A DNA stretch of 64,000 bases from Sipunculus nudus (Eukaryota; Annelida; Sipuncula; Golfingiida; Sipunculidae). Below, one piece after another: positions 6,193-62,032 of this stretch. Positions within the stretch are counted from its first letter, which is position 1. Each line of letters opens with the position of its first letter. The DNA lies in the NCBI GenBank assembly GCA_026874595.1, contig CM049312.1, forward strand, positions 64,200,929 to 64,264,928, given 5' to 3'. The notes below the pieces were generated by a model. It was not told where the DNA came from. It ran no database searches and was given only the letters and a program-made list of their open reading frames with translations. The translations under genes and the position numbers were made by a program.

Positions 6193-6199
6193 GTCAAAT

Positions 6200-32389: not shown

Positions 32390-34060
32390 GCTGAAAAGCA
32401 TTTTGTATTGGGAAAATAAATTTCAAAGTTATTTCAAGTAGGGACCACTTTTGTGTACAGATAGCAGCACTTGGTATACCATTGGCAGATTGCCAGTGCC
32501 TTGATGTTGGCCATTAGCCAAGATGATGTCAGCTCTATTAATAGTTTTGGCACAGTGCCAGGATTAGAAGAAGTGCAGCCAGGTATAGGTCAAGAGTTCA
32601 CTCAGTGCAGAAGCTTCAGGCAGCAATTTGTCACAGGTCACTTGGGGGCAACTGCCTTACTCACCTTAGCCTTGTCAGCCCAGTGCATCAAACTCTGGGG
32701 AAGTTTGATGTATTGGACTGATATTTTGACCTGTCTATGCTTCATTTACAAGACAGGTGGTGCCACCTACATTGACTTTTGCAGTGTATGCGCCTGCTTA
32801 TTTCTAAAGAGGAATTTGAAACATCAACCTAAAATTGGGCATGTTTATACATATCGGGTAGCTTTATAGTGTACAAGACTGGTGGCGCCACCTACAATAA
32901 TTTTTGCACAGTGTATGTCCCTGCTTTTATTTTACTGGAGGGGTTTGACATATCAGTCTGACATTGGGCATATGTATATATCTCTTTGTTGTATATAAGA
33001 CTGGTGGTGCCAGCTACAATCATTGTATCCGCCAAAACAGGGTTTTGTGGATACTATGTTTTCAGTTGGACGCAGACGCTGCTGCCATCACCGCATAGGT
33101 TTCCAGAGAACTCCTCCATAACCACTGGTCAGAATTTTTTAAAATTCAGAAATATGTCGGTCACATGTGAACTGCTGCGCCCTCATTTTTGGTTGACCTC
33201 TGACCTTTCCTCTCTGCCCAGGGTCCATTTGTGCGTCTTTTTCCACAAATAAACCCACATATCTCAGGAACTAAAGGGATAAGGCTAAAGATTTTGCACA
33301 AATGTAGCCCTTGGAAAGCTTTATAACATACACTTAAAATGGTGGCGCCACCTGCAACCATTTTTGCACAGCATCTGTCTGTTCATCTGCCTTGGGATAA
33401 AAACACTCATATCTCTGCATTGGTTGGACTTATCCACCTGAAATTTTGCATAAATCCTGGACAGCTTCCTTGATTTTATGACAGGTGGCGCCACCTACAT
33501 TCATGTTTAAGCTGCAGACATCCAAGCTCATATCTCGGGAACTGTTTGACCAGTTGGGCCAAAATTTTGCATGTTTATAGATCTATCATAGCTATTTATC
33601 ATACGAAAAACTGGTGGCGCCACCTGCAATCATTTTTGCACAGCGTCCTTCAGTTTGTTTGCCATGGGATAAAATCACTCGTATCTCGGTAGTGGTATGA
33701 CATATCTGTCTAAAATTTTGCATGTTTATACATCTTGGATAGCTTTCTGGATTTTGTGGCAGGTGGCGCCACCTCCATTCAGATTTACGCTGCAGACATC
33801 CAAGCTCATATCTCAGGAACCATTTGACCGATTAGGCAAAAATTTTGCATGTTAATTAATCTCGCATAGCTCTTAATCATACACAAAATTGGTGGGGCCA
33901 CCTGCCACCTTTTATGCACAAGTCCTTTTGTTTTTCTGCCGTGGGCTAAAATCACTCATATCTCAGTAGTGGTTTGACTTATCTGCCTAAAATTTCGCAT
34001 ATGTATACAACTTGGACAGCTTTCTGGAATTTATGGTAGAGGGCGCAACCTACATACACA
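32390..34060. repeat. GGTGGCGCCACC palindrome array, array 1
   Basis: After a unique-looking lead (32460-32740, shared with 42420-42600) comes a run of alternating ~130-150 bp half-units. One carries GGTGGCGCCACCTGCAACCA then TTTTTGCACAG and GGGATAAAATCACTCATATC; the other carries GGTGGCGCCACCTACATTCA then CTGCAGACATCCAAGCTCAT and ATATCTCAGGAACC. Exact GGTGGCGCCACC occurs near 32881, 33341, 33485, 33612 and 33762, with a variant near 33891. ORFs inside (32471-32869, 32986-33252) are repeat artefacts. Confidence 0.8.
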
Positions 34061-34065
34061 TTTCA

Positions 34066-34186: not shown

Positions 34187-34217
<31 letters not shown>

Positions 34218-34930
34218 ATACAAACTTATATGGCTTGTCAAATAAAATATGGTCACACCTTATTTTTGTTAATATTTATTGATAAAAAATGTGGTCATAC
34301 TTATGTGACCACATTTTATAATATTCTATATATAATACAAACTTATTAGGCTGGTCAAATAAAATGTGGTCACACCTTATTTTTGTCAATATTTATTGTG
34401 AAAAATGTGGTCACCCCATATGTGACAACATTTGATAATATTATATATATAATACAAACTTATTAGGCTGGTCAAATAAAATGTGGTCACACCTTATTTT
34501 TGTCAATATTCTTTGGTGAAAAATGTGGTCACACCATATGTGACCACATTTTATAATATTCTTTATATAATACAAACTTATATGGCTGGTAAAGTAAAAT
34601 GTGGTCACAACTTATTTTTTTAAAATGTGGTCACACCATATGTTACCACATTTTGTAATATATTATATATAATACAAACCTATATGGCTGGTCAATAAAT
34701 TGTGGTCACAACTTATTTTTTTATTGGTTAAAAATATGGTCTCTTGGTTTGAAAAAAATTCAGGATTAAATTTAGAAAAAATAAGGGATATGATGATGTA
34801 AGAATATATTTAAATGTGGTCACAACACCTTTTTTTACTATTTCTAACTACTAAATGTGGTCACACAATTTATAAAAAAGAGATCTCACCTTAATATTGT
34901 CATTAATTATAACTAATAAATGTTGTCACA
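34066..34930. repeat. Tandem array with TGTGGTCAC/GTGACCACA palindromes, array 2
   Basis: Same unit and orientation as array 1. About 14 GTGGTCAC/GTGACCAC words occur, including complete facing pairs near 34157 and 34525. A short (TA)n run lies at about 34192-34216. Units decay towards 34.9 kb, after which the sequence passes into the promoter segment of the protease gene. Confidence 0.85.
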
Positions 34931-35124: not shown

Positions 35125-35140
35125 ATGTGGATAAAAAGAG
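35125..35140 (+). CDS. Protease gene, coding part of exon 1
   Basis: ATG TGG ATA AAA AGA G, then the donor GTAAAA at 35141. Joining to the next exon completes a Glu codon and stays open into MERLSK. The donor is weaker than the GTAAGT at exon 2. The inverted copy conserves length and donor but not the ATG. Confidence 0.6.
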
Positions 35141-38100
35141 GTAAAAAATTATAAACATATATGGGTAATATTATATATTGACTGTAAATTTTATATGACA
35201 TCATCTAAATGTTAAACATGGTATATATGTATATTAATGTGGATTCATGACGTCGGCTCAGAATGTCTTTGACACGACATCATTTTGGGTATTTTCAGCA
35301 AACTACTCTTTTTTTTTTGTAGCAAAATAAATATATATAAATAACATACAAAAATATGATATCATTAGATGCGCCGGATCGTCAACTTTATCATGCAAAA
35401 AAAATTTTAGTGAAATGTGGTCACACTTATTTGTGAGAGAGAGAAATATGTTATTTTGCACGATTACCATTAATTATGCAGCTAAAAAGAGCATAATCCA
35501 GCAAAATAAAACAAGCTTTTCCTAGAAGAGCGCACCATGATACGTGTGCCAAACTATGACGGCGATATCAAAACAGAAGCAGATATACCAACTTGTCAAG
35601 AAAAAATTGCATGTTAATTGTATAGATTTTATGCACAAATTCTATTACATTGTCAAATTTCAGAAAAAGAACATATGGAGAGGCTGTCAAAATCAAACAA
35701 GAAGAGAGTCCTTCCAGACAGGTTTGTTGGCTCAGCCAAACGGGTTTCAGCTGCACCTCCATCCTCCAAAGAAAACATCCCTAAGAAACGTAGAATTGGT
35801 AAGTATATCTGGTGAGAGTGGAAAAAGTTTATTAATATTGGCCTATTGGCTGTCTCAGGTTAAGAATTTTGTTTTGTCTGTCACCAGCTAGAGTTTGCTT
35901 TTTGTAATTCAATTAACCATGGAGATAAAAAGATGGTGTAAGCACTTGAATCATGGAGCATATCTGATGTTGCTTGCGACCTTGATAAGCCAGAGAAAAC
36001 ATACACTTAGATGTGAAAGCTCTTTGATCTGGCTACCTTCACTTGCCTAATGCTCTATATCTAGAGTTATCCCTGATACATCATGTTGTCCTTGCCAAGG
36101 ATACCACATGGTAAGCTATGAATCTTACCCTAACTATTGACCATCACTGGTGGCGCCACAAGGATTTTTTAGCTCAGCTGACTATAAGTCATCTGAGCTA
36201 TAGTCGTGGTCCATTGTCCGTCGTCCGTCCGTCTGTCGTGCCGTCCGTCTGTCCAGATGTCCGTCCGTAAGACTGGCACATTTCGACACCATTGGACCTA
36301 CAAATCTGAAATTCGACATACAGTTAGATGTCCCCAAAATCTCCCACCATGCCGAAAATTGGGTCAATAGGACTTCGTTCATTCGAGATATTAAGGAAAA
36401 ACCTCAATTTTTTATTAGAAATCTATTTTCACACTTCAGGACTGCCTAATATCAAAACCACTCATCAGGTTTTCTTCATATTTACCATAAATATTCCTCT
36501 ATATAGTTTCTATGTACATGCCAGATATTAAGTCAGTATTGTATAATTTAAAAAAGTTATGGGCCCAAACATAATGGACTCTGTAAAAAAATCAGGAAGA
36601 TATTTGGTCACTTAAGACCCAAAAGTGTTAAAGGTAGGGACTTTTTTCCAGTAATACAACTTTTATTAATCAAAATTTAATTGTATACCAAAAATTAGAT
36701 CAAAATCTGTTAAATTTTTTTTTAATATTGGCAAAAATATAAAATTGGTACCTTAAATTTTGCCCAACTTTGGCCACGGCACGTTTTTTTTCCTGTAAGT
36801 ACTGTGGATTTAATTTTTACAGCATGTATACATTAGGATTTAATCTGTTTAAATCTGAAATTTTAAAATAAAAGCTGCAAAAATTAGGTTATTTATTGAA
36901 TTTTTTTTAGGCTCTTGTTGTATTCCCTTACATAGTCAAGCAGTCCACTTAGATGACTGTAGGTCATTCAGTGCACATCTCTATGCTCCCCAGGCTGTTG
37001 GCATAATTTTAGATGTCCCCAAAATCTCCTACCATACCGAAAATTGGGTCATCAGGACTTCATTCCTTCGAGATATTAAGGGAAAAAAACTCTGTTTTCC
37101 ATAAAAAAAGCCACACTTCAAGGCTGCCTAATATCAAAACCACTGATCTGTTTTTGATCGTATTTAGTATTCACATTTTTTCATACATTTCTATGAACAT
37201 ACCAAAAATTAGGTCAGTATTGGGTATTATTTTGAAGTTATGGGCCAAAACATAATGCAATTTTTTAAAAAATCAGGAAATATATTTACTCACCTTACAT
37301 GAGCATTGCTGGACCTAGAGGATTTTTTTTCAGGAATATAACTTTATTTAATCAAGATTCAATTAATTGTTTACCCAAAATTAGATCTGAATTTTGCAAA
37401 TTTTTCAAGTTATTAGCATAAATAAAAAATCAATACCTTAAATTTTGTCCAACTTTGGCACTGTTGATTTAATTTTCACAGCATATATACATAAGGATTT
37501 AATCTTTTAAAATCTGAAATTTCAAAGAAATTGATTGGAAAGAATGGCTTTAATTCTTGTTTCCATACACCATGTCAAGTGTTGTTTACATCTAGCCCAC
37601 CTAGTAGTACAGCCTTCACTTGCATTATGTAACCCACCCCATGCAGCTTGCCTTGGGTCAGCTTGGCCACTACCAGCAGGCTTCCCCTCTGCCCTGCACC
37701 CCCCCCCCCCTCCAAGATGGTGCATAAACTAGATGAATGTTATTATCTTCTGTATTTGATTCATTCTTATTCTAAGCTATGCTACATTTTAGATTTTGTA
37801 TTGTACCACCAGGGTTACAATGATTAAAGTGTACATTTAATTGTGTCCACAAAGTGGTGTATTGCTATGAAAGTGTGGATGTTCATCAGATAAGTAATTC
37901 CTTACTTCAGAGGAGGAAAAACTTCACCAGGTGTGAAATTGACTATTAATTCCAGTAATAAATTAAAACTGGGATAGTAATTAGCACAATGATATTGTTT
38001 GTCCCTCATTCAACCAACAGTGTGTATACTTTATTTGAAAAGATGTTTTATTTTATCAAATTTACTGAATCTTTTATTTTATTTTGGTGAATAAAATTAA

Positions 38101-41100
38101 GCATGTACTGAAAACTCCAATGTGCAAAACTTTTTAATAGTGATTCAAGGAATATTCTTGTTGATGCCATGTTGTGGCTTATTTTCTTTTAAATCAGTTT
38201 AAACATTTATGATTTAAAAATAATAAAATATATTTGTACCCATAATATGACCCAATATGAGCTACACTCTCAATATATGATGATTGCAGCTTTTGCAACA
38301 ATTCTAATATTATAACTTATAGTTTCAGTTTTTTACTCTGTATATATAATGATTGCAATTTTTGCAACAATTCTAATATTTTAACTTACATTTTCAGGTT
38401 TTTTTTATTAAAAATTTATAAAACCTGTAAATAAAAAAATGATTCAGATAAAAACTTCTTAATGGAAAAAGTGGATATGCTTAAAAAAAATAGGATTATA
38501 TATAAACTTAAATGCATTATTCCCTTGAAAGTGAAATAAAGTTATTAGTCCATTCTGTCCACTTGCCTGTCCATCTGTAAATTTTCATATGCATCACAGT
38601 ATCTCAAAACTTTTACTGTTTTTCTTCATGACAGTCTTGTCAGAGTATTAGTTTGCAATCATATATTTAGAACTTTACTATAACCAAGTAGGAGGGCCCC
38701 TTTTCTCATAGCTTTTCATATTCTTATATAAATGAAAAACATTACAATAGAATATTTCTACATCCACCTTCGTGCTGCCCTCACTTCTCCCTTCTCCAAA
38801 CCCCATCCCAAAGTCAGCCTCAGTAAGCAAGAACAAGATGAATCAGATACATTCATACTTTAATATTTTGTATAACTATTCGTCCATAGGTACCTATGTA
38901 CATGCCAGAAATTATGTCAATATTGTGTAATATGTAGACATAGTAGGCATCACAATAATGTACCTTGTCAAGACTAAAGAGATATTGTGTCATACAGCAC
39001 CTAGTTATAAAAATTAATACTTTTGTAATGGACTTATATAAGTCTACTTGCATATGTGAAATGTGTTTTCTTTTTCCTCTTTCATGTTTTCATGTATACT
39101 AAAAAATTCAAATTTTCATTTAAGAATATGAATCCTGTATATTTATATTCAGTTTAAAGTGTCTTAGTTCATGTTAAGGCCATAAAATGTACACTATTTT
39201 TAAAATCTAACAACATTTTTTTGCTGATTGTAAACACATTTTTTAATTGATCACTCATTTTCATATCATATTGAAAGATGTATACTATTTTAAGGAGCCA
39301 ATTACAATAAATCTGTTTTTAATTAAAAAATATTAATCTAAACAAATGAAACACTATTTACATTACTCCATAAAAGTTTGAGGAATCATTTATGATAAAT
39401 ATGGTGATTTTTATATATCTCTATTTGATGTTGTGTATACAGTAATGTAATCTAGAAAAAATCTTCTTAATGACACAAATCATTTATTTCAGGTAAGTAA
39501 GTCCTAAGGACTGTATTCATAATTGTCTGATGAGTAAAATGTAAGTCATGTTTTGTAAGCTGTATATAAAGTTACATACATTTGTAAATTTCAGTGAGTT
39601 TTATTTGATATATATTTCATCCATTAAGCAGGTACTCTTCAGCTTTAAATTAAATATGTGCATGTTGTATGTCTATTATACTATCATTTCCTTGCTGGGT
39701 ATACAGCTAGTAAATAGTAAATACACATCCTGTGTGATGAAAAACAACATAACAATAAACAATAAATTAATAATTTTGTATTGTTTTTTTATAACAAATT
39801 TAAGAAAAATTAATAGAAAAGGAATTTGTTAGGTGATGAGTAACAGAAAATTAACTTGCAGTTACTAATGATGTAAGAATCTTGTATGGATGGATAGAAT
39901 GTCAATGTCAATGTTATTCCAAATAACACCATGCAGTCACCTATGGTATTTTTCAGTGAAATTTTAATGATAAAAAAATAAATCATATTATTTATTACTA
40001 ATCATTAGGGATCATATGAAGGAAACTAATGATAGACAAAGATGCAGTTGATAATATTAATCTAGATTCCTACTGTGTCTAGTGTGTAGATTGATGTGAA
40101 AGTAGTCCAAAGTGAATATATTACATTTATTTTTTTTAACAAAATAAAAGCCATAAAACCAGGTACTTATGATCATCATTTAAATTTGTGAATTTTGTAT
40201 ATTCTGGATTCTCAACATCATTGTTTGGCTAAAACTGAATAAATACTAGACATGGTGTGAATGCTTTGCAAATGTATTTAATACAAATATGAATATGTAC
40301 TGCATTAAAAAATTTTATTGCATAAGAATGGGAATTCAGGTAAAAATGAAAGTATTTGAATACCAGTGTAGATACTTTCAAAATGTATTCATGAATGCAT
40401 TCATGATTATATTCTATAATATTATTTTAATAATCATTTCAGATTTTAAAAAATCATATGATTTTCTTATTATTTTTTTAAATAAAAATTATATTGGCAC
40501 AATATTTGTTATTAAATTTTAATAAATAGTTAAACTCTTTCATTATATGTGCTGCTTATAAGTTATATGGCCAAGTCAAAATCTGTGTGACAATAGCACT
40601 CCATTTGTTTATAAAATAAATGAAATCAATCCTCTTCCCTGTCTCCAAAGATACTATCAAAATCATACATAAGCTAAACACCAACAACTCATAATAAAGC
40701 TTATATTTATTACCACACAAAACAAGCATGTGCCTCTTTCCCAAATCATATTTTTTATCATACATAACAGCTGAGCGGCGTGACCCATGGGTCCCTTGTT
40801 TCTATTTTTTATGATTTTTGCCCCTCTGCTTGGCAGATCTGGGGACATTGATTTGGGTTTGTCTATCTATTCATCTATCTGTCTGTCCCTTGGTCTGTCC
40901 CTCTGTCAAGTTTTAGTTTCCGTGCAACAACTTTTCTAAATATTATCCAATTTCATTCAAATTCGGGTCAGTGATTGCTCTCGTGCATACCTTGGTTTGG
41001 CTTGGTTTTGGAGTGTCTGTCTAAAAATTCTTTATCACCAGCTCAATAACAAATAAACATTTCCCTTTTGTTAGCAAACCTCTGAGCTTATGCGATGGCA

Positions 41101-44100
41101 CAGCACCGTCCGTCTGCTGTTGTCCGTCATCTGTATGTTAACTTATGCCATCTCAAAAACAGCTGGAGCTGGCATCACCAAATATTATGCAAAAATCAGT
41201 CATCTAAAAAATCTGATTTTGAGTATTTTTTTTTTTTTTGATATCTGCTTTTACTTTGATTTTATAAGAAAAAATCTAAAAAACCTTTAAAAATCTTCTC
41301 CAAAACTGTCCAGCCTAATTCTTCAATATTCACAGAAACAATCTCTGAAACCATCTCTATCAAGTTTGTTCTAACGATCTCAGTCTGGTTAATTTTAGCT
41401 GAGTTACAGGAATCTGAACTTAGTCATTTTGTTAAAAAAGGATACTAAAATTACAATATCAGAAACTGCCGGAACAATCACCAAATTTTATGCAATTGTT
41501 GGTCACATGACTTATTTTTTAAATTGAGGTATTGGTGGTGCCACCTGCATCAACCTTTATGTAGAGGGTCATCCATAATCAGTACATTAACTCACAATCC
41601 CCAAATTTTATGCAAAATTCTGTTATACAAAGGTTGTTGGATTGAGCTTTTTGTGATGCCACCTACATTCACTTACATTTTACATCTTACATTCTTCTCT
41701 GAAATCAATCCGTCAAATTGTTTGGGTTTGGTGTATTTTGCCCGAGAAAGTTGAATTAGAACTTATTCATTTGGCAAAGTAAGCATACTAACATAACAAT
41801 CTCAGAAACAACAGGAGCTAGCATCACCAAGTTTTGTGCAAATGTCTGTCACATAACTGATATTGGAAATTGCAATTTTTTGTGGCACAACCTACATAGA
41901 CCTGTTTTTTACGGGCAAAATTCCTGATTATTTTAGCCTCTTACAACTTAAAAATTATATGATTGAGAAAATTTTATGATGAGATTGCCAAGCTGAATCT
42001 GTAAATTTTTCAGTGAATTATCCAAGGGTAGAGGTCTTTGAATTGTATGAAATAAATTGGGATCATTGATTTTTGGTAGAGTCATAGATAGCTGAAGTTG
42101 GTCTTGTGGCCATTAGTATGCCTATTTTGAACTGAGGGCTGAAATATTCCATCTTCTGTTACATTGCACAAAAATGATTCTGAAGAGGCCTATGTTCCTG
42201 TTTCCTGAAATGATTTTTGGCAGAATTATGGGACCTTTAATAATGAAAGGACTTAATCTCTTTTTACTCTAAACATTTAACAAAAAAATCTTATGATCAT
42301 GTCAGCTTGAAAAAAATATTGTAGCCAAAGTCTTTCATTATGTGCAAACAGATTTACCAACAGGCCATAATTGTGTCTGTACTATAAATAGCTTCAGACT
42401 GCTGACTATTTCAGATTATGCAACAGGTCAAAGTTCACTCAGTGCAGCCGATTACAGGTCAAAAGTTAACTCAGTGCAGCTAGGTGCTGAGCAAGAGTTC
42501 ACCCAGTGCAGTAGCCGCAGGTAGCAATTTATTCTAGTCCACTCGGGGCAACTGCCTTTCTCACCTAAGCCTGGTCAGCTCACCGCACCTGACTCAACAG
42601 AGGTTTGATGTTATGGCCTGATATTTTGACCTGTCTATGCATCTTAGATGGCTTTCTCATATACAGACTGATGGCCCCACCTACAATAATTTTTGCACAG
42701 TGTATGTCCCTGCTTATTTTTCAGGAGGGATTTTATATATAAGCCTGAAATTCGAAATATGTATACACCTCAGATAGCTTCATCATATGCAAGACAGGTG
42801 GCGCCACTTACAATAATATTTGAAGTGTATGCTCCTGCTTATTCCTCAGGTGTGATTTGACATATCAGCCTGAAATTATACATGTAGAATAATTTAGTTG
42901 TATATAAGACTTGTGGTGCCACCTAAAATTGTTCCATGCATCTGTACACAAAGCAGACATGGGGTAATCATTATTGATTGTAATCAATTACATTTTTGTT
43001 TGTAATTATAATTGTAATTGATTACATTTATTTTTAAAGCAAAGTATTTGAAATCATAATCAGTTACTCTCTCAATGTAATTTTTATCACAATCATTAGA
43101 TATGTTTACACTGATTACTCTTGTATTTCTGATTTTAAACAGCTACAGTTAAGGTTTCCCTAAAACTGTACTTTCATGCTGTTGCTTCACCTGTTGTGAC
43201 ATCTGACGGCCATTAAATTATACTTAATTAGTAGATGTATCTGATGGAGATAGCTCGATTGTGTGTGTGAGCATTCTGAGATTAAATAGGAGAGGAATAA
43301 ATGAAAATAAATGTTTTAAATTTCATATCTGTCATGTTCAGTGTGGTCGTCATACCTTAATTAAAGACCATGGTGAAGTGCTCACTGTAACAACTTTTAG
43401 CTATTCTTATTTGTGCAATCTGTATTGCAAAAATGAGCAGTTAGATGAGCCAGGTATTATTCACCTACCAGTCACCTCCTGAGCAAATCATCTAATTAGT
43501 ATATGAGCCAAGTTATAAGATTAGACCTAGTCATGATTAATTGTAACTGCCAAAACAAAGTTTTGCAGATACTATGTTTTTGACCGGGTCCCAACGACGC
43601 TGCTATGTTTCTGGAATAGATCTCTGAGACCACTGGACAGATTTTTCCAAAATATTACACGGTTATCGGGTCACATGTTAACTGGTGCCAAAATATTTTG
43701 CGTTGACCTCTGACCTTTCCTTTCTCCAGTGAGTCCATCTGTGCCTCTGTTTTGACACATTAACCCGCATATCTTTGGACTTGTTTGACCAATCAGGAAA
43801 ATATTTTTGCACAAATGTAACCCTTGGATAGGTTTATAACATGCATAAAAATTGTGACGCCACCTGCAATCATTTTCGCACAGCTTCCATCTGTTTGTCT
43901 GCTGTGGGATAAAATCACTCATTTCTCAGCAGTGGTTTGACTAATCTACCTAAAATTTTGCATGTTTATACATCTTGGATAACATTCTCAATTTTGTGGC
44001 AGGTTGCTCCACCTACTTTCACGTTCAGACTGCAGACATCTAGGCTTATATCTCAGGACTGGTTTGACGTTCTCCTCCTGAAATTTTGCATGTGTATAGA

Positions 44101-47100
44101 TCTCAAATGGCTCGTTATCAAACGCAAAACTGGTGGTGCCACCTGCAACCAAAATTTGCACAGTGTCCGTCTGTTTGTCTGCCATGGGATAAAATCAAGC
44201 ATATCTTGGCGGTGGTTTGACTAATCTGCCAAAAATTTTGCAATTGTATACAACTTGGATAACTTTCTGGACTTTGTGGCAGGTGGCGCCTCCAACATAC
44301 ACATTTTGGCTGCAGACAGCCATGCTAATATGCAACAATATAAACAATGTGGTCGTTGAGCTGAGCAGACGTGTGTGTAATGCTTCTGCGCAGCGCCACC
44401 TGTCATAAGTGTATTCTCAGAGCAGTCTTATACCTCAAACTCAATGGATTAGATAATATTGGAACATGGGCTAGGTCCTCACAGTGCAAGCAGGAATTGA
44501 CATTATTTTGTGATTCTGAAGCAATATATAGTGACTTGCAGTATGATGATTGCCTACTCAAGTACCTGAAGGACGTTTAAATTAAGCCGAAAAACCCAGG
44601 TAGGCAGAATATACTTCATGTCGTACTTTTGGATGTGTTATGAGTGAGCTGAACAAACTTCCATGTGATTCCCCATCAAGGCTGTACAATAAACGTAATA
44701 GAAACTCAGACAGTTCCTTGTCACCTGACACTCCTAAACTGCAGGAAAAGAAATCTAAACCTGCCATGCTTGAACTGGAGCAGCAACCAAATAGAGCAGC
44801 TCTGGAAACTATAAATCCGGATGCTCCTCTAACAGTTGGACTGCTTGCTGAGTTTCTGCAGCTACAAGCAGACTACTTAAACAGTAGGCTAGAGCTGAAA
44901 TTAGCTGACCAACAGAAATTGATAAGTGACCAACAGGCTGAGATCATTAGAGTGAAAGGTCAGTTAGAATCATGCGAGAACGAACTGGTAAAGGTAAATA
45001 CAGAATTGAAGCTCTTTCACAGTGCTCTGGATGAGCAGGAGTACAGCCACCGTAACTCTGTAAGAAAATCTTGACATTGAAACATGGGAGACCTTTTCAA
45101 ATCATTTAAGGCTGAATCTGTGGGACAATGATTATTTTCGAATTCATCGAGTTGGCAAGCCAGACATAGCATCGGACGCCAAACCTCGACCAATTTAAGT
45201 GAAACTGACAAATCACAACGCAAGAACAATTAAAGTGAATGCTGGGGGATGTATATTAATGTTATCTTGCATTGGGTCAAAGTTTTTTTTTATTAAATGT
45301 GATCATCATTTATGGGAGGTTGTAGTTTGCAATTCTAGGGTTGGATTGTGACAATATTAAGATTCGTAATCATTGCTGTAATCATGATTACCTTTTTAAG
45401 TAATCATAAAGTAATCGTAATCAATTACATGATATCATTTTGGTAATCTTAATTATTGTATCGGCTAAAATTTGTACATCCTGGATAGCTTTCTTGATTT
45501 TATGACAGGTGGCGCCCCTTACTTTCACCTTCACACTGCAGACATCCATGCTTATATCTCTGGACTGGATGACGTATCTTCCTGAAAATTTGCACGTGTA
45601 TAGATCTCACATAGCTCTTTATCATACACAAAACTGGTAGCGCCACCTGCAACCATTTTTGCACAGCGTCCGTCTGTTTGTCTGCCGTGAGATAAAATCA
45701 CTCATATCTCGGCAGTGGTTTGACATATCTGCCTAAAATTTTGCAGGTTTATACATCCTAGACAGCTTTCATGAATTATGACAGGTAGCGCCACATACAT
45801 TCTAGTTTACACTGCAGACATCAAAGCTCATATCTCAGGAACCATTTGACCGATTGGGCCAAAATTTTGCATGTGTATAGATCTCACATAGCTTTTTATC
45901 ATACACAAAACTGGAAGGGCCACCTGCAACCATTTTTGCACAGCATCCGCCTGTTTGTCTGCAGTGGGATAAAATCACTCATATCTCAGCAGTGGTTTGA
46001 CATATCTGCTTAAAATTTTGCAGGTTTATACATCCTGAACAGCTTTCTTGATTTTATGACAGGTGGCACCACCTACATTCTAGTTTATGCTGCAGATATC
46101 CAAGCTCATATCTCGGGAACCGTTTGACTGATTGGGCCAAAATTTTGTATGTGTATAGATCATACACAAAACTGGAATGGCCACCTGCAACCATTTTTGC
46201 ACAGCATCCGCCTGTTTGTCTGCAGTGGGATAAAATCACTCATCTCAGTAGTGGTTTGATTTATATGCCTTAAATTTTGCATGTTTATACATCTTGGATA
46301 GCTTTCTGGACGTTTTGGCAGGTGGCACCACCTACATTTATGTTAATGCTGCAGACATTCAGGCTTATATCTCAGGACTGGTTGGACATATCCCCCTGAA
46401 ATTTTGCATGTGTATAGATCTCAAATACCTCTTAATCATACACAAAATTGGTGGTGCCACCTGCCACCATTTTTGCACAAGTCCTGTTTGTCTGCTGTTG
46501 GATAAAATCACTCATATATATGTAGTGGTTTGACTTATCTTCCTAAAATTTTGCATATGTATACAACTAGGACAACTTTCTGGATTTTGTGGTAGGTGGT
46601 GCAACCTACATACACATTTTGACATCCATTCTAATATGCAACACACCTCATTCTATTTCCACTCCATCCATGCCCAACTTCATCTGTTCCACTCTGATTT
46701 TGGCAGATACACTTGTCGCTTGTCTACTACCCGTATTCTAGTTTACTTTTAAATTAATTATTACATATATCAAGTAATCACCCCATGTCTGGTACATAGA
46801 TGAAAAGTGGTTTAAAGTATCTGCCTTAAATGTTTTATGTCCATACATCTTTGATGGCCTTTTCATACACAAGACTGGTGGTGCCACCTACAATCATTTT
46901 TTTGTTGTGTGCACCCATGCCAGTATTTCAGCAGTGACCTTTGTATAATTGGTGAATGTACTTGGGTTCAAAATGTTCAGTGCTTGCATTGTACATATAC
47001 ATGTCAAACTTAAAAGTGAAAAGTAAAGGGCCAGCTTTGAAGCATTATACCTGATTTATAGCCCATTGCACAGGTTTGCATTAGCCTGTAGGCCTTGTTA

Positions 47101-50100
47101 CCAATTCACAACAAAAATGATAACATGTGTAGACATCTTCAGGGGACAATGATATCTAAAACACAGGCACTATGACATGTGGAGACATCTTCAGGGGAAA
47201 ATCAAAACTAAAACATATTGCGAAAGCAAGCATGAAGATCACAGGAAGCTAAAATAACAAAATAAAGAAGCAAGGGACATAGCTTAAAAAGATTTGCTTG
47301 TTTTTCTGTTTTGACACCGTCAAATGAAAGCCATTATGTCAGTTTCTCAGCTGTGGTTTAATCCAGTGTCCTGAAACCTGATGTGTTTATCGATTATGAT
47401 TGGTTTTTTCAGTTCCTGAAGTCTGGTGGTGCCACATGTATTTTTTTCCTTTTAGATGCATTTTTAGCTGAGCTGACTTTCAGTCATGCTGGGCTAAAGC
47501 GATGGGTCTTTGTCCGTAGTCCTTCCGTCTGTCCAGCCGGACTGCCGGACCTCCATCCCTCACAGGGCACAAATCGTAACCGTAGGGTCTAGGGCCATGA
47601 ACCCAATGCAGTCTTAGAGGTTCTAAAAAGATCTCCTTGCAAACCTGAAATTAGGTCACTGCGACCTATATTCTCGAAGTTATGGGTTGTGTTTGCACCC
47701 CCCAGAAATAATTCTTTTAGCCAAAATGTTCATCCCAAACCTTCCATCTTTCACATACAGCTCACCTACCAACAGGGGAAGAACCATAATTATTTTGAGG
47801 TCAAAGGTCAAGGTCACAGAACTAACTTCTGTGAAAAGCCTGTGGATGCATTTTAAGCCAAACCTTTCATCCCAATTGTTTGATCTTTCACATATAGCTC
47901 ACCTACTAAGTGGGAGAAGAATCCTATAGATGTTGAGGTCACAAGGTCAAAGTCAGGGTCACAGGATCCACTTCTATGAAAAGGTTGTTGACACATTTCA
48001 AGCTAGACCTTTCATTCCAAACCTTTCAGCGCTGATATTGCTTCTCTGCCAACAGGGGAAAAGACCAGAACTTTGATTTTGAGGTCAAAGGTCAAGTTCA
48101 CAGCACCCTCTTCTTGCATGGAGTCATTTTCAGGCAAACTTTTCAATCTATACTTTCCATCTGTCATATATGGCTTACCTACCAATAGGGGACGAAGCCT
48201 ATTGATGTTGAGTTCAAAAGGTCAAAGGTCAAGGTCACAATATTGTTCTAAGTACTTGTGAACATATTTCAAGTGAAACTGTTCAACCCAGACCTTCAGT
48301 CTTTCACATATGCCACATCTATGCATCACTGAATGTGATTCAAACTTCATATTTATGGGTCTTTTTGCATGAAGAAATAACTAATTGATTTTGAGGTCAG
48401 CTGGTCCAGAGGTTAAAGGTTGCAGGTCTAAGTTATTCACTAACTGGTTGCCAAGTAATTACACCCCGCCAGATGTAAGTGGTTAGTAGTTACCCATCAT
48501 TTAGAAAGAATCCAGTTGATATGTGGGCAAAAGGCCAAGGTCATAGGTCAGGGATGTTCACAATAACTTATTTTGTAGACCATCTCTATTTTTCTTGTAC
48601 ATATAACCATTGTTTATGGTACATCTCACTGTGTGGCTGTAATTGTGAGTGATGCTGGTGACATATGACTCTCTTTTGTATCAGCCTGTTAAGTGATAAG
48701 GCTGAGTGATAAATACCTCGTTACTGCATAACAAAAACACTGTTGTCGGAATGCTTCAGCCAGGCATTAAGACTGTGAGAGTATAGTATTAAGGTTTAGC
48801 CACTGATTAATAAAATGATGGGAACATTTTGCAGTTTATTTTATGGAATCATAGCAATAAAGTTAGTTTCCTAGATATCTGAATATTTTTATATAAATCA
48901 CCAGATATAATGCAAATGTTTGTTCTCATAATATGTGGATGTGTACCTGGATTTAGGATGGCTTTTTTTTATTACAAGACCTTTATTCATGCTTCCTGCA
49001 TTTCTTTTCTTTCAGGTTTTGCAGTTTATCTACCCAGCTGATCCCATTGAAAAGCAGAGTGATAATAAAAAATATTGGACTGACACTTTTTACATTTGCA
49101 TATCTATAAATCTGAATATGAGGGCCTGAAAATGCCTTTTGAATTGTTTTGGACATTCATTACTGTAACATCCTTTGGAGAATTTGCTACAAGTTTGGTC
49201 TCTTATTGGAGGATGTGTGATATCAAATGTCAGACTTGTCAGAAATCCATTAGTTCTGCCAGTTAGCCACCTTGGAAATCCTTTTGTCAGTGCAGTTTCA
49301 GTGATTTTTAGCTCAGCTGACTTTTAGTCATGCTGTGCTATAGCGATGGGTCTTTGTCTGTCGTCCTTCCATCTGTCCGTCCATCCGGCCGGCCGTCCGG
49401 CCGTTAGCAGGGCACAAATTGTAACTGTAAGGGCTAGATGCATGAACCCTATGCAGTCTTAGAGGTTCTAAAAAGATCTCCTTGCAGATCTGAAATAAGG
49501 TCACTGTGACCTATATTCTCTGAGTTACGGGGTGTGTTTGCACCTCCCAGAATGAATTCTTATAGCCAAAATAATCATCCCAAACCTTCAATGTCAATAG
49601 AGGAACAAACCTTTTGATATTTAGTTCTTAGGGTCAAAGGTCAATGTCACAGGACCAGCTTCTTGAAAAAAGTTGTGGATGCATTTCAAGTCAGACTTTT
49701 CATCCCAAACCTTCCATCTTCCAAGTACGGTCAGATACCATATGGTATACCATCAGGCTTTAAATACAGGTCATGCTTGTCAGCTGAGCGTCATGACCCA
49801 TGGGTCACTTGTTTCCTTTATTTTGAGACTGCCAAATTCTACTGATACTTTCAGCTTCTCAACTGTGGTTTCATCTGTGTTCTGAAACCTTGTGGTGATA
49901 ATTAGGGCCTGGCTTGAATAGAGCCCCTTTTGTTCGACGCAGCAATAAAAAGAAACTGTAATTTGAAAATCTGCACTTGGGCGCTACCTTCAGCCCTAGT
50001 TACACTCATTTGACACATCCCAGTTCCGCCAAGAGAAACTATTCCTGCTCTTCACACAGCCTAATAATCTACAGTCCCCAGGCTATATGACAACCCACTT

Positions 50101-53100
50101 CCCTGATAAGCTTGGCAAGCCCAATATGGAAAGCAAAGCTATCTGATAATCTCATTCTACACATCAAACCATGCCTCATAGTGTACTGGATTTGCAGTCA
50201 GTCCACCCAGCCACTGGGATAAAAATACAAGTTATTGTGACCAGTTGAGTTTCATTTTATCTACTCAATGATCTGCATTGTATGCCTAACTGGTATTCTT
50301 CATAGACATGTAAATACACTGGATTTCAATTACACTGACATGTATTATAACAATGTGAAGAAGACATACTTTCCCAAGACGGCCTAAAGAAAATGTACCT
50401 GGGTGGATCTCCACCAGTGGTTTTCTAGCTTGATACTATTCAGCTTTGTGACACATGCACAAGCAGGTTTCTTATCTCTTTGTATTCTTGTAATACCTGT
50501 GTTGCCGTTTACACCATAGTACCGTTAAATGTCTTATCGTATGCATTCATGGCATTATTTCTGATCAGCACTATTTACTTTCAAGCAAAAAATGTGAGAT
50601 CACCAACAAAGAAGAAAACAGTTCCACTTAATGATGAAAATGCACCACCTAAAAACAGCATGGCTGAAGCAGCAAAGGGTGAGCCAGAAGAAGGTCAGAG
50701 GGAAAATGCCCAGTCATTGAAAGCATCAACATTACAGAAGAAAACTACTGGTAAATACAGGATATCTGTATAAGAGAAAAGTCATAGTTGAAATAATTTG
50801 CATCCCTTGTTAGCCCTTAGGCTGATGGGCTAACTTTTTATATAACCGTTAACTTTTACCTTGTGAGCGGGATATCTTGAAAAGGATTCACCGTCAGAAT
50901 TTTATTTCCTTGGTAAAGATGTATATAGACAAAATCTCAGTCAAGTTCGAAGATGGGTGACCTTGACCGATTTCTCTACATTTTAAAGCTGATTATAGAA
51001 AAACACTTAGATGCTTATTACTCAGGAACCATTTGGTGGATTTTCACAAAACTTACTATGATTATTGGGACTGATAATCTGTACCTGCTACACAAGTTTG
51101 GTGGCGCCATCTACAATATCTGATTTTAATGAATTTTTATCGGATTTTTCAACTTTGGGCTTGTGAGCAGGATATCTCTAAAAGGATTCACCGTAGGAAT
51201 TTAAATTTTTTCGGTGAAGATGTATATTGACAAAATCTTGGTCAAGTTTGAAGATGGGTGACCTTGACCTACTTTTCTACGTTTTAGAGCTGATTATAGA
51301 AAAAACATTTAGAAGCTTATTTCTCAGGAACCATTGGGTGGATTTTCACAATACTTACTATGATCATAGGGACTGATGGTCTGTAATACTGCACAAGTTT
51401 GGGGGGGGGGGCAACCTGCAATTTCTGATTTTTAATGAATTTTTCTTGGATTTTTCAATTTTGGCCTTGTGAGCAGGATATTTCTAAAAGGATTTTATTT
51501 CCTTGGTAAAGATGTATATAGACAAAATCTCAGTCAAGTTCGAAGATGGGTGACCTTGACCGATTTCTCTACATTTTAAAGCTGATTATAGAAAAACACT
51601 TAGATGCTTATTACTCAGGAACCATTTGGTGGATTTTCACAAAACTTACTATGATTATTGGGACTGATAATCTGTACCTGCTACACAAGTTTGGTGGCGC
51701 CATCTACAATATCTGATTTTAATGAATTTTTATCGGATTTTTCAACTTTGGGCTTGTGAGCAGGATATCTCTAAAAGGATTCACCGTAGGAATTTAAATT
51801 TTTTCGGTGAAGATGTATATTGACAAAATCTTGGTCAAGTTTGAAGATGGGTGACCTTGACCTACTTTTCTACGTTTTAGAGCTGATTATAGAAAAAACA
51901 TTTAGAAGCTTATTTCTCAGGAACCATTGGGTGGATTTTCACAATACTTACTATGATCATAGGGACTGATGGTCTGTAATACTGCACAAGTTTGGGGGGG
52001 GGCAACCTGCAATTTCTGATTTTTAATGAATTTTTCTTGGATTTTTCAATTTTGGCCTTGTGAGCAGGATATTTCTAAAAGGATTCACAATAGGAATTTT
52101 ATTTCTTTGGTGAAGATGCATATCAACAAAATCTCAGTCATGTTCAAAGATGGGTGACCTTGACCTGCTTTTCAAGGTCACAGAGCTTATAATAGGATAA
52201 AACTTAAAAGCTTATTTTCAGGAAGCATTTGATGGATTGTTATGAGTCATGGTACATACCTCTCCATTTTAAATATATAACTGAGACATGTACAGATATA
52301 CATACATGTGAGAACAGATATTTAGTACTTGTCACTTTTACCAGCTCTAAACACTGTTCCTTTGGCTTAGGGCTTTTGTCAGCTTCTGCTGATATTCTAG
52401 TTTAAAATGCCAGCAGCATTCAATATGTCGATATAAAATATTCATTGTTTTCCAATTACTTTTTTTTGTGTATGCAGATGTTATCATTGATTGTTTTCAA
52501 TCAAATTTTTTTTTTGTGATGAATTTAGGTTATCAATGAAAATAAAATAAAAACGAACAAAAAGTGAAAAGTCACGGTTTTCTCATGGGGTGGGCTACTG
52601 ACAACCCTGCTACTAGCATTGCACAAATTGCAAAAGTTCATGCTAGAACCTTCTTATTTATTAATGTGACTGGTCTGCATAGGTTTAAAACCTTATATTA
52701 GTGGCAGTTCTTTTTATAATGTGGCAGTTCTTGCCTCCTTTGTTCTAACCCATTTGAATTATTCTTGATCCATTTACAGTAAAACCTGGGTGTGTAATGT
52801 TAAAGGTGAATACGCTCCTTTGTAAATTATTAAACAAGCAGGCTTATGCAAAACATTTGTTATCATAAATACAGTATGCTTGTCCATGGGCCATTTTCTG
52901 TTTGCATGCCCACTGTTTGGACATTTATCCAGAATAGCACATTGGATTTTCAAAACATTTTCCTGAAAAGAAATTTTTTCCTTCAGAAACCTTAATTTTA
53001 TATATATTCAACAGTATTATTAACAGTAGTAACATATATTCAAAGTTCTGTTTATTGTTTTGTTTATGGCTTTTTTAGGACACCACAAAAGTCGAAGAGG

Positions 53101-53962
53101 AGTACTTATGAACAGGGAAAACGGAGTACCATCAATCCCAACAGCAAACAGTGTAGAATCATGGAAATCTGATTCAGTTGTACATGGGGCTATTTTTCAC
53201 AAAATTGACAATTGTCAGTTTTCTGTTTGTTCTATCTTTTGGCATGATGAACATAAAGGTACAGGATTTTATATCAGACAAAGACCATGTACTTCAGCTT
53301 GCAGCTTGGTGTGCAATTGCAAATTAGTTTGTACTTGCTTTCACGTGATTCAAGATTACCTCAATATGCTTCAAGATTCCAATTTAAAGCTAAAGGAAGG
53401 TTTGGAAGTTAAATTCCATGACCAGGAAGGACGAATTGTTAAATCCATTGGTGTCAGAGATGTGTTGGCATATTGTTCACAGTTAGATTATGCTGTGCTA
53501 AGTTTAAAGGATTTTGCTTCTCACGTAGAACCTTTCATAGATTTTGCAAATCCACCTGTCTCTGAAAAATATATTCATATGATTGGATTTCCTGAAAAAC
53601 CGGAGAGAATGGTTGAAACCAATCTGAAAGTTATCAATGTTGGATTATTCTTGGAAGAACATTTTGATATGTTTGATGATGAGGAAGAGTTGGAAATAAA
53701 AGACAAGCACCACCTGGTTTATCATTGTGACTTTGCACATGGTTCGAGTGGATCTCCAATAGTTGATAACATTGGAAGGATTGTGGGCATCCATAAAAAA
53801 GGATATAACAACACTGATGGCCGTCCAGGTTATCGGGTTAAACTGGGAGTAAAGATGGTGCCTGTTTTGTTGCTTGCAAATGAGAGGTTTGGGCTGTTTA
53901 CTGATGGGCGAGATAGACTTCTTGAACTTTACAATGAACTATTACCTGGGACTTTGTTGTAA
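35125..53962 (+). CDS. FAM111-like trypsin-fold serine protease, four-exon gene (399 aa)
   Basis: Coding exons are 35125-35140, 35664-35798, 50586-50750 and 53079-53962. All three introns have GT..AG ends and are phase 1. Lengths of 16+135+165+884 nt sum to exactly 400 codons including TAA. Residues 1-105 are basic and low-complexity: KEN at about residues 43-45 followed by PKKRR, then RSPTKKK and ENAPP. Residues about 139-385 form a chymotrypsin-like domain: GTGF, TCFHV (His194), LDYAVLSL (Asp242) and HGSSGSP (Ser329), with IVGIHKKGY after it. Motif spacing and the C-rich first barrel resemble FAM111A/B, nuclear proteases that clear DNA-protein crosslinks in vertebrates. Vertebrate proteins are ~600-730 aa with ubiquitin-like folds before the protease; these are absent here. 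No signal peptide or membrane segment is seen, so intracellular, probably nuclear (inference). An alternative is a bacterial-like or orphan trypsin-2 family member. Start choice: the exon-1 ATG is in frame; Met at 35675 is the fallback. Confidence 0.8.
35664..35798 (+). CDS. Protease gene, exon 2
   Basis: Acceptor TGTCAAATTTCAG before 35664; donor GTAAGTA after 35798. Encodes 45 residues rich in Lys/Arg/Ser (SKSNKKRVLPDRF, SSKENIPKKRR). The KEN triplet followed by a basic cluster could be an APC/C degron beside a nuclear localisation signal. Confidence 0.8.
36171..40801 (+). repeat. Dispersed repeat family A, copy 2 (long, probably composite)
   Basis: It has the same 5' hairpin start (AGCTCAGCTGACTATAAGTC) and 3' end (GTGACCCATGGGTCCCTTG) as copy 1 but is about 2 kb longer. 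A second internal start-like section at about 36990-37250 (TTTTAGATGTCCCCAAAATC repeated) suggests two fused or nested copies. The 39740-40801 part parallels 31320-32375 closely, including a run with TACCAGTGTAGATACTTTCA-type sequence. Confidence 0.7.
41074..41900. repeat. Dispersed repeat family B, diverged single copy
   Basis: Starts GCAAACCTCTGAGCTTATGC and follows the order of the 897-bp unit (ACAGCTGGAGCTGGCATCAC, then CTCAAGTTTGTTC-like and GCTGAGTTACAGGAA words) with many substitutions and small gaps. Confidence 0.7.
42952..46793. mobile_element. hAT-like structure with CAGACATGGGGT termini
   Basis: Left end CAGACATGGGGTAATCATTA (42952) and right end AAGTAATCACCCCATGTCTG (ending 46793) are inverted. 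Subterminal TAATC/GATTA words are dense, for example TTGTAATCAATTAC at the left, and again at 45365-45470. hAT elements typically start CAG and have 8-bp duplications. The flanks ACACAAAG and GTACATAG agree at 5 of 8 positions, so any duplication is decayed. No transposase is seen; much of the interior is array sequence. Confidence 0.45.
44640..45240 (+). mobile_element. LINE ORF1 fragment (coiled coil plus RNA-binding C-terminus)
   Basis: A 144-residue frame (44640-45074) starts with a Ser/Asn-rich head, has a heptad-rich segment (LELKLADQQKLISDQQAEI, roughly residues 80-125), and ends LDEQEYSHRNSVRKS just before a stop. LDxxEQYSRRN is the usual junction of LINE ORF1 coiled coils with their RNA-binding domain. 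Past the stop, another frame reads HRVGKP and KPRPI followed by a stop and VKLTNHNAR, matching the ORF1 C-terminal fold. So ORF1 is split by a frame shift and at least one stop. No endonuclease or RT follows. The frame at 44371-44580 just upstream may be part of the same element but is not recognisable. Confidence 0.6.
46960..47460. other. Intronic sequence with short duplication
   Basis: GTGTAGACATCTTCAGGGGA near 47127 and GTGGAGACATCTTCAGGGGA near 47179 are a short direct repeat. No other feature is seen. Confidence 0.4.
47466..49814 (+). repeat. Dispersed repeat family A-like copies rich in AGGTCA words
   Basis: Starts AGCTGAGCTGACTTTCAGTC, contains GATGGGTCTTTGTCCGTAGT, and has a second start AGCTCAGCTGACTTTTAGTC at about 49310. 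The shared end CAGCTGAGCGTCATGACCCA then TGGGTCACTTG finishes at 49814, so two nested or tandem copies share one end. The body carries repeated GAGGTCAAAGGTCAAGGTCA words (47797, 48081, 48211, 49624, with variants). Confidence 0.7.
50586..50750 (+). CDS. Protease gene, exon 3
   Basis: Acceptor TTTACTTTCAAG before 50586; donor GTAAATA after 50750. Encodes 55 residues, hydrophilic and Lys/Glu-rich (NVRSPTKKKTVPLNDENAPP, then GEPEEGQRENAQS). It is probably disordered. RSPTKKK fits the CDK consensus (S-P-x-K). Confidence 0.75.
50751..53078 (+). other. Intron 3 of the protease gene (2.3 kb)
   Basis: GTAAATA donor to TGGCTTTTTTAG acceptor. The first two thirds are the 593-bp tandem duplication; 52200-53078 is AT-rich with no named feature. 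Confidence 0.7.
50860..52200. repeat. 593-bp near-identical tandem duplication built on a ~300-bp dimer
   Basis: TTTATTTCCTTGGTAAAGAT occurs at 50901 and 51494 (period 593), and the intervening sequence is almost the same in both units, apart from the length of the G-run near 51403 and 51997. Inside each unit two ~300-bp halves are related (GGGTGACCTTGACC and GATTATAGAAAAA in each). A third, diverged partial half runs to about 52200. One half carries GGTGGCGCCATC, linking it to the palindrome arrays. Confidence 0.9.
53079..53962 (+). CDS. Protease gene, terminal exon 4 (serine protease domain)
   Basis: Acceptor GGCTTTTTTAG before 53079; stop TAA at 53960-53962. Encodes residues 106-399 (Gly106 is split by the intron). 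Barrel 1: FSVCSIF, GTGFYI, Cys-rich CSLVCNCKLVCTCFHVI with His194, and LDYAVLSL with Asp242. Barrel 2: IHMIGFP, an acidic loop DMFDDEEELE (residues about 302-311), CDFAHGSSGSPI with nucleophile Ser329 and oxyanion glycine 327, then GRIVGIHKKGYN. All three triad residues are present and the frame is intact, so an active enzyme is expected. The six or so closely spaced Cys around 180-193 are unusual for an intracellular trypsin-like fold. Confidence 0.9.
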
Positions 53963-59469: not shown

Positions 59470-61370
59470 TTTGTGTTAAATTTTAACCTAATTTCAGGAG
59501 TCCAACTTGAACTGTCAAGGACCTATCTGGATATTATATAAGAATTGCGTAGGTTAAATGGTTATGCCTTCTTATCAGACGAACCTTATCTTGTTTTAAA
59601 ATGGAGGAAAATGCTTTAAAATCGAAAAAAGTACAAGTAGCCCCTTTAGTACTCAGAACCTGATGAAGCGGCCCATGATCAATATTTAGGAAAGAATCAT
59701 AGCTATCCATGTATTAAATATCGAGAAACAGGAGCCTTTGTATCAATTTTGTTATTGTTATGGAGTGCTCAAACTGGCCGCCTAATGTGGGATATAGGCC
59801 TATAATTTGCAGTGACCTTAATTCAGGTTTTCAAAGAAATGAATTAAGAACGAAATTTCCAGGTCAAGCGGTTGTGATTTCCACACTGTCAAACAAAGCT
59901 TCTTTCATCTAACTGTTGTAAAAATAGAGTGAAAATGTGTAAAAATTCGAAAAATATGGTTGGCTCCACCAATCTTCAGGATCCGATAAAACTATCCAAA
60001 ATCAATATTCAAGGCAAGATCCAGGGCAATCCTTGCATTGATGATCAAGATACAGGTGATTTTGTATCAATGTTTTTAATTATTCTGAGGTGTCCAAACA
60101 GGTCGTATAACTCGGCGAATACAGGACACAGTGACCTAATATCAGGTTTCCCTACGGAGAACTTTGAAGTACTTCTGATGATGCCAAGTCATAAGTTGCT
60201 AGGTTTAACGGTTACGATTTGTGCTCCGTTAACGGACAGAGGACCGGACAACCGGACAATGAGTGATCGCTATAGCTCAGATGGCTAAAAACAACACATT
60301 CGTTCATCAGCGGTATAACAAATGCCCAAATACAGGTACAAGTTTGTACATGTACATTGTAATATAAACACAGATAAATAGAAGAAGAGTCAGAGTTCCT
60401 GAAGTATTTGAGTTGATCCCTGATATAATTAAGTTCCACGCAAGCAAGTTTCATTGGCGAATAAAGTAATGTTTGGAGTTTATAGACATATACTGCGTTG
60501 ATCTTGGTATGACATCGTGCGAGTTAGCCAGCTTGCACGTAATAATATGGCCCTTGGTGTCAAGCGTGGCTAAACATCTCAAAATTATAACTTCTGCACA
60601 ATATAATTCCATGCAATACCGGTCTATAGCACCAAATGTATTACCATCCAGTTGAATTTTATTTTCGGAATGTTTATGTAACAATATCTCATGTGTCTAT
60701 TGACATCTAAAACTGCGTCTATAGTTATATTGTAATAAAAGCCTTCATTTGGGAGACAAGGAGAGACCTTGTATTCTTTCAGTTACCAGGTATATTTTCC
60801 ATAATTTACACCATAATGTAAACTGATTACCACTCTAAACCTCTCTTAAAATAAACGTTTTGTCAGGATGTATATGATTTTCGTGTATGTATCTGTTTTT
60901 GGGCAGGCCTATATAAATATGTGTATGTATTCACATATGTATATGTGTATGTTTTCACATATGTATAACAATGATTAGATGATGTGTTTCAATTGGACAG
61001 TAACCTAAAATCAAGATCGGATCAAGTGATACTTTATTTATTTTCTTTGTTTCGCAGATCAATGTATCATGGCAAGATTAGTTCATATATATATGGGCCT
61101 AACTAGGATGATTAAATATTAAAAATAGTGAATCAATACATATATTGTCATCTCTTCAGTGCTTCATCTGAGAAAAGGCTGCATAATAAATGTGGGAATT
61201 CTAAACAAAACAGCTTTACTTATTAATTTAATACTAGGTCACACATTTGACTTGTAAATTTTCAAACAAAATATCTTCAGAAGAGGCTCAAGTGCATTAA
61301 CATCCCGCGTTACGTCAAGTGTCAATTTTGACAGTTGCAAATATTTAGTAAAGGAAAAATAATATAAATA
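59470..61370. other. Intergenic sequence, nothing firm
   Basis: Family A-like words occur at about 59600-60290 (AGTGACCTAATATCAGGTTTCC, GGACCGGACAACCGGACAAT then CTATAGCTCAGATGGCTAA), which look like a reverse-oriented, decayed copy of the dispersed repeat. ATATGTGTATGT/TTCACATATGTAT words repeat at 60915-60965. No gene is recognised. Confidence 0.4.
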
Positions 61371-61377
61371 TAACCAT

Positions 61378-62032
61378 ATGCTTCGATATGATTCGATACT
61401 TCATTTCCTGGGAGAAGAAGTATTTGAACTTGGGATCTTTAATGTAGAGTGCCCCCTTAAACCAGGTGATAAAACAACTGTGCATTTTCTCCATACAACA
61501 CTCGGAGAGTACATTATAGCACTTGCTATTTCTTTAGGCGAATCTGAAATAATGGAGAAAGTTATCAGTTTAAGCAGCACCGTTTTCGGACTGATAAGAA
61601 TGAAAAATGTGTTAGAATTTCTCCCGGGCCTTGACGCAACAACAGCAAATCTCATAATGCAGCGGATATGGTCCGATTTTGATCCTACTGATTTTCTGGA
61701 TGAGCTGAGTGAAGTTGGAGATTATGCATCAAGTCTTGGAGTTTGGTTACAATTTCATCCCCATCGTAAAAGAACTATATTTGATACTTTTGCTAAATTT
61801 TTCCCTATGTTCGGCTGTCGAATAGAAATGGCACATTATGCTGTGATATGTGACTTTATGTTACATATATAAATTTTGATTATATCAGAGTTCCCAGAAA
61901 CTGAAGTAGCAGAATTCCCTGTGACTGTTCTTAGCCTTGACACCAGTTGTGTTGACACAGACTTGTCGCATAAACTTTTCTGTTTACCTAAAATTCAAGT
62001 TAAGCCAAAAATAGTTGTCACCAGAAATCGGT
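61378..62032 (+). pseudogene. NLR-like (NACHT-LRR) gene remnant
   Basis: The frame from 61378 encodes 164 residues with the NLR signature of the helical region after the NACHT ATPase: VFELGIF near residues 15-21 and TTVHFLHTTLGEYIIAL near 33-49 (family pattern FxHxxfqEyxaA). After TAA at 61870-61872 the same frame stays open with EFPVTVLSLDTSCVDTDL and KLFCLPKI, which reads like a leucine-rich repeat, up to TGA at about 62030. One stop thus separates two parts of one protein. Upstream, an in-frame TAA lies at 61360 with no splice acceptor between it and the ATG, and no NACHT P-loop exon was found. It is probably a fragment of an intracellular pattern receptor of the kind expanded in bivalves. 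Confidence 0.55.

Follow-up and report, generated by a model that had tools for sequence, protein, structure and literature searches.

The window analysed here, a 64,000-nucleotide stretch of Sipunculus nudus DNA (C7:64,200,929-64,264,928 of a 1.43-Gb assembly of 153 contigs), holds an open frame for a FAM111-type serine protease. The reading we favour, and hold to be rather probable, is that this is an intact gene whose product is probably nuclear and whose N-terminal tail, derived from an exon of a repair gene, likely places the protease on chromatin or damaged DNA. In mechanistic terms, a chymotrypsin-fold protease of the FAM111 type, contained in one terminal exon that appears to have been duplicated many times in this genome, would have been joined to two symmetric phase 1-1 exons encoding a basic and probably disordered tail. 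That tail, coming in part from a Ku-binding exon, would most likely be what puts the protease in place, and there the domain may act in the way proposed for FAM111A, by cleaving proteins that are flexible or crosslinked to DNA. The features concerned are listed below, with positions counted along the window.

35125..35140, plus strand: proposed and doubtful exon 1, 16 nt, encoding MWIKR plus 1 nt; an ORF join with donor GTAAAA
35664..35798, plus strand: exon 2, 135 nt, phase 1-1; its NKKRVLPDRFVGSAKRV is akin to the exon that holds the Ku-binding motif in an APLF-like C3 gene
35675..35677, plus strand: alternative start ATG, in frame within exon 2 (MERLSK...), giving a 390-aa product
35705..35722, plus strand: motif core RVLPDR, which is R-x-x-P-x-W except for Arg (AGG) at the Trp position
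50586..50750, plus strand: exon 3, 165 nt, phase 1-1, Lys/Glu/Pro-rich
53079..53962, plus strand: terminal exon 4, 884 nt, with the FAM111-type serine protease domain and the stop codon
53300..53353, plus strand: a row of three 18-nt units (CSLVCN / CKLVCT / CFHVIQ) belonging to a Cys-rich insert of about 13 residues
54649..54654, plus strand: candidate polyadenylation signal AATAAA

The relationship of exon 2 to a repair gene emerged from searches of the genome in both directions. With exons 2-3 as the query, a single place besides the gene itself was returned at E<=10 (C3:10,885,228, E=0.07), and the C3 exon, searched against the full 1.43 Gb at the same threshold, returned only itself and window exon 2, at an E of 4.6e-4 to which three residues translated from the conserved splice donor contribute. 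The two exons align without a gap over 44 aa (z=12.3, fitted p ~1e-7); the C3 exon reads MAMPLNKKRVLPSWMVGAAKRV... and ends with G before GTAAGTAT, and exon 2 ends at the identical phase-1 GTAAGTAT donor. Met codons lie just upstream of NKKRVLP in the C3 exon also. The similarity is not confined to the NKKRVLP core, as none of 20,000 shuffles scored as well as the flank outside it taken alone. Judged by this alignment, exon 2 shares ancestry with the Ku-binding-motif exon of the C3 gene.

The C3 exon contains KKRVLPSWM, in agreement with the Ku-binding core R-x-x-P-x-W, and 5.8 kb further downstream the same strand encodes a PBZ zinc finger whose match is above cut-off. A Ku-binding motif together with a PBZ finger is the make-up of APLF, and on these two elements the gene (C3:10885234-10891269, the first exon lying in L077) looks APLF-like. 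None of the 19 matches in an FHA search of the genome fell near C3:10.88 Mb, and a PF15325 search, which considered the gene as MRI/CYREN, gave no match, its controls being equally without one. According to the accessible part of PMC4831024, motifs of the APLF type with the core R-x-x-P-x-W occur in APLF, WRN and MRI, and changing the Trp to Ala greatly reduced or ablated Ku binding. Whilst the C3 exon has this core intact (RVLPSW), exon 2 of the window departs from it (RVLPDR). Given that the essential Trp is an Arg in the window copy, direct binding of Ku in the manner of APLF is not expected of the window protein; there may be another or residual contact, or plain decay of the motif. We found no report of a Ku-binding motif in a FAM111 protein in the literature searched, which took in few subscription papers.

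Exons 1-3 encode 96-105 residues, and the first 106 residues of the product are basic (27 K/R against 12 D/E); neither exon 3 nor the basic tail as a whole has a Pfam match, and the tail encoded by exons 2-3 is probably disordered. It is quite conceivable, to a degree just short of even, that the exon-2 motif is a decayed relic within the gene of a FAM111-like protease, and that the tail has no partner in repair, being just a disordered leader of a generic, nuclear-localising kind. This account overlaps with the one we prefer, so the two likelihoods are not parts of one whole. It draws on the loss of the essential Trp, considered with the Trp-to-Ala effect on Ku binding in the accessible part of PMC4831024, on the basic tail that matches nothing in Pfam, and on seven family loci in which a search covering a few kb upstream found no convincing match to exons 2-3 (best E=3.4). 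Against it stand the extension of similarity into the flank of the core and the fact that exon 2 has kept both its open frame and its splice donor, suggesting that the exon stays in use. In the account we prefer, the tail would have a targeting role and the protein a probably nuclear site.

The protease itself belongs to a sizeable family in this genome. Queried with the window protease, the genome gave at least 35 places, and with an array protein at least 40. Most striking in number is a tandem array at C17:15.43-15.62 Mb (15427951-15618053) with at least 27 copies at a period of about 7.3 kb, 21 of the 27 being uninterrupted over the full query and the rest having stops or shortened frames. 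The variation count left out one array copy and took in 26 loci, 20 of which keep the full open frame; over these loci of about 3.5 kb the mean difference is 0.37%, that is more than 99% DNA identity on average. Since the copies differ so little, the array is, by this measure, young or homogenised. Next to it, at C17:15.64 Mb, lies a half-identical neighbour, and two further FAM111-like genes are found at C17:38.86 and 39.09 Mb. A copy at C15:37.81 Mb, 44% identical over the aligned part, has the catalytic His replaced by Pro and its match interrupted by a stop, another at C15:19.21 Mb is also broken, and a C-terminal piece of the protease lies at C7:64.55 Mb. In all five members read by eye (the window gene, L031, L033, L034 and L036), a candidate phase-1 AG acceptor precedes the protease exon, which suggests that the domain may behave as one movable exon; L034 has a second candidate acceptor, in phase 0, about 24 nt upstream.

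This multiplication of copies could speak for an expanded intracellular defence family, whose members multiply under virus pressure and of which the window gene would be a single-copy member, a reading that we regard as possible but rather unlikely. The array with its diverged neighbour, the two other C17 genes, the two broken C15 copies and the C7 fragment would all suit it, as would the antiviral role of FAM111A, which restricts some viruses in human cells (accessible part of PMC9798293). Yet 11 of the 13 codons that vary among the 20 intact array copies do so nonsynonymously, which, with 743 N and 202 S sites, is a near neutral ratio. Models of prokaryotic defence proteases did match the window exon (RT-Protease_XI, E=1.4e-10; LmuA, 3.7e-10), but two DegP controls matched both models and two trypsin-like controls matched LmuA, so these matches are unspecific and we rejected the link. 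In NCBIfam no match went below E=0.1, and in PHROGs the window exon reached no E below 0.027.

Other origins were tried and likewise rejected. Neither of two scans of viral contigs turned up a relative, and a tblastn search of 50,697 phage records ended in four weak partial matches (best E=0.2). A scan of prokaryotic genome contigs gave four weak Bradyrhizobium loci with 23-28% identity in the best segment, and a Pfam scan of one of these four found Trypsin_2 only. At two Bradyrhizobium loci (L073 and L075), a Trypsin_2-type stretch (LTCWHVI; the Pfam scan covered L075) belongs to an open frame of some 700 residues whose long C-terminal part matches nothing in Pfam; the adjoining frame is subtilisin-like by eye. 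Within the S. nudus assembly, sixteen smaller contigs (in the C61-C90 range, plus C117; loci L040-L069) bear bacterial-looking DegP/HtrA-type genes, many of which score identically between contigs; GC is 0.35-0.37 in four loci checked and 0.52 in the C117 locus. These contigs look like symbiont or contaminant genomes within the animal assembly.

The structure of the window gene needs careful interpretation at its 5' end. The initial annotation had joined four exons with uniform phase-1 junctions into 400 codons, and the join itself is sound: all borders are GT/AG, all junctions are in phase 1, and the 1200 nt encode 399 aa and a stop. The terminal exon is a 309-codon open frame, which together with its Trypsin_2 match is more than chance would give. 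The part that does not hold up well is exon 1 and, with it, the start of the 399-residue product, which is doubtful because exon 1 is only 16 nt long and its ATG sits in a repeated word, AGTGAAATGTGG. This word recurs 290 nt downstream and has five matches in the window at <=1 mismatch, against 0.54 expected; exon 1 is perhaps 5' UTR or no exon at all. Given the in-frame ATG at 35675, the product may have 390 rather than 399 aa, and we consider a start at this ATG at least as likely as the 399-aa start, and perhaps likelier. For the remainder, the gene seems intact as read from the DNA, and we infer that it is spliced as drawn. Between exon 1 and exon 4 we counted 377 stop-free phase-1/phase-1 AG..GT segments of 60-400 nt; by a combined splice and codon score, built from splice matrices that we approximated ourselves and a codon table whose training set was four paralogues plus exon 4 itself, exon 3 ranked second and exon 2 fourth, with ranks 1, 3, 5 and 6 all taken by nested variants of these two.

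That the true product might be the terminal exon alone, begun at an internal Met, or that exon joined to other upstream exons, with exons 2-3 belonging elsewhere, seems to us improbable. Intron 2 is long (14.8 kb) and spans tandem repeats, and the paralogue loci examined match only the protease exon, both of which would fit such a product, but no other compatible segment scores as high as exons 2 and 3 with their nested variants, and exon 4 is preceded by a good phase-1 acceptor, of which there are candidates in four paralogues too.

The surroundings of the gene are rich in repeats. Long tandem repeats lie at window positions 45471-46611 in intron 2 (period ~277 bp) and 50851-52238 in intron 3 (~301 bp), and upstream of the gene at 25824-26557 (~116 bp), 33336-34063 (~278 bp) and 34210-34723 (~117/102 bp), the 116/117-bp units containing AAATGTGGTCACA and its reverse complement. 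Retrotransposon-like pieces are seen by eye at 16579-16860 on the plus strand and at 4845-6210 and 9631-11006 on the minus strand; at 16579-16857 there is some likeness to reverse transcriptase, but the match is weak (E=0.004) and does not pass the cut-off, and the minus-strand frames scanned have no significant Pfam match. Downstream of the gene there is a 169-codon open frame (61363-61872, plus strand), whose VHFLHTTLGEYIIA we take to recall NACHT-type proteins; this frame has no significant match in Pfam (best E=0.14) or the PDB (best E=1).

Turning to the protease domain, Trypsin_2 is the sole Pfam family above its cut-off in the terminal exon (E=3.5e-12). Compared with 177,635 distinct PDB sequences, the window exon matched human FAM111A best (E=3.1e-5), with flavivirus proteases next (0.023) and HtrA chains matching weakly (E from 0.12). 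FAM111A was also the best match of the array paralogue (1.6e-14, next family 0.0092) and of the C17:38.86 Mb paralogue (1.3e-10, next family 3.8e-6), and a profile of five members (A2) matched it at 3.8e-26 over chain residues 3-255 of 270, SplB-type proteases being the next family at 1.5e-9. Closeness to FAM111A is thus judged by sequence searches among PDB entries, a collection that holds few intracellular animal relatives. As for controls from the same assembly, a trypsin-like one (L071) had no FAM111A among the best 60 of its 161 matches, which reached E=0.031, and a bacterial DegP (L041) matched DegP/DegQ chains first, the best 60 of its 170 matches reaching E=3e-41, a range too narrow to place FAM111A. 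The least probable of the readings considered, that of a generic Trypsin_2/HtrA-type protease with no special relation to FAM111, could appeal to Trypsin_2 as the only Pfam family and to the weak HtrA matches, but the five-member profile puts FAM111A 54 bits ahead of the next family among PDB sequences, where a nearer family without a solved structure is possible, and Pfam scans at E<=1 found no PDZ domain in the product.

Several statements of the initial annotation on this domain can now be judged. The complete triad it described is confirmed as His194, Asp242 and Ser329 (399-aa numbering), aligned with His385/Asp439/Ser541 of FAM111A as numbered in the accessible part of PMC10920703, and its assignment to a FAM111-like protease is upheld by the profile search among PDB sequences. 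It was also right that a ubiquitin-like region is missing at the sequence level: no UBL was matched by the whole product in Pfam or by its first 156 residues among PDB sequences, where the single match had E=0.1. Its remark that FAM111 is known mainly from vertebrates has to be corrected, as FAM111A-like proteins without UBLs from a coral and a lancelet are already published (accessible part of PMC9798293); that text sees a need for further functional annotation of relatives without UBLs. There, two N-terminal UBLs are found in the vertebrates of the tree and missing in its two invertebrates, and the PIP box is placed within mammals, after the marsupial branch. The PIP-box pattern Q..[ILMV]..[FYW][FYW] is absent from the window product. 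With neither UBL nor PIP box, the product would be classed as a FAM111-type protease by its domain and not as a FAM111A orthologue by vertebrate criteria.

Directly before the catalytic His is the Cys-rich insert of about 13 residues, also seen in the C15:37.81 Mb paralogue. The alpha-1 helix dimer interface of FAM111A includes Val347 and Val351 (accessible part of PMC10920703); in an ungapped register we read these two as Phe and Asp, with a hydrophobic stretch preceding SVCSIFW. AlphaFold2, run on the protease domain as a single sequence with no alignment, gave a pLDDT of only 41.

As to how FAM111 proteases acquired a role at replicating or damaged DNA, the accessible part of PMC9798293 suggests that virus restriction may have come first and a replication role later. 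A UBL-less member whose tail comes from the Ku-binding exon of a repair gene would, if true, make a repair-first alternative testable, and the defence idea can be tested alongside on the sister gene, which this genome carries in an array of at least 27 copies. One could go further and propose, as a speculation that we think unlikely in this full form, that proteases of the FAM111 type arose among invertebrates as a mobile exon in phase 1 that was repeatedly joined to various address tags, and that in this lineage it captured the Ku-binding exon of an APLF-like gene, for delivery to DNA ends via the end-joining machinery, either ahead of the mammalian PCNA tag (the PIP box) or alongside it. Two things are added to the initial annotation: the kinship between exon 2 and an exon of an APLF-like gene, and a genome-wide family with a tandem array.

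Among known systems, HtrA/DegP (S1C) and exported trypsins share the chymotrypsin-type fold and triad with the window protein, which differs in having no PDZ match, a basic N-terminus that by eye is not a hydrophobic leader, and a weaker match to them. APLF-type Ku-binding motifs (APLF, WRN, MRI) are comparable through the homology of exon 2 to the C3 exon with KKRVLPSWM upstream of a PBZ finger, whereas RVLPDR in the window protein is without the required Trp and the rest of that protein is a protease. The FAM111A-like proteins without UBLs from Paramuricea clavata and Branchiostoma belcheri, compared by their description in the accessible part of PMC9798293, are similarly non-vertebrate Trypsin_2 proteases. 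With the vertebrate intracellular S1 proteases FAM111A and FAM111B, the comparison being made with FAM111A rather than FAM111B, the alignment spans almost all of the crystallised FAM111A protease domain, and the triad, LDYAvL, H(M/I)IG, G(S/A)SGSP and the His of the S1 region (GIHKKGY vs AMHAAGF) are held in common. The window protein differs from FAM111A in having no UBL match or PIP-box pattern, a Cys-rich stretch inserted ahead of the catalytic His, a basic tail with an exon akin to the APLF exon for the Ku-binding motif and perhaps, on the plain-register reading, other residues in place of the dimer-helix valines.
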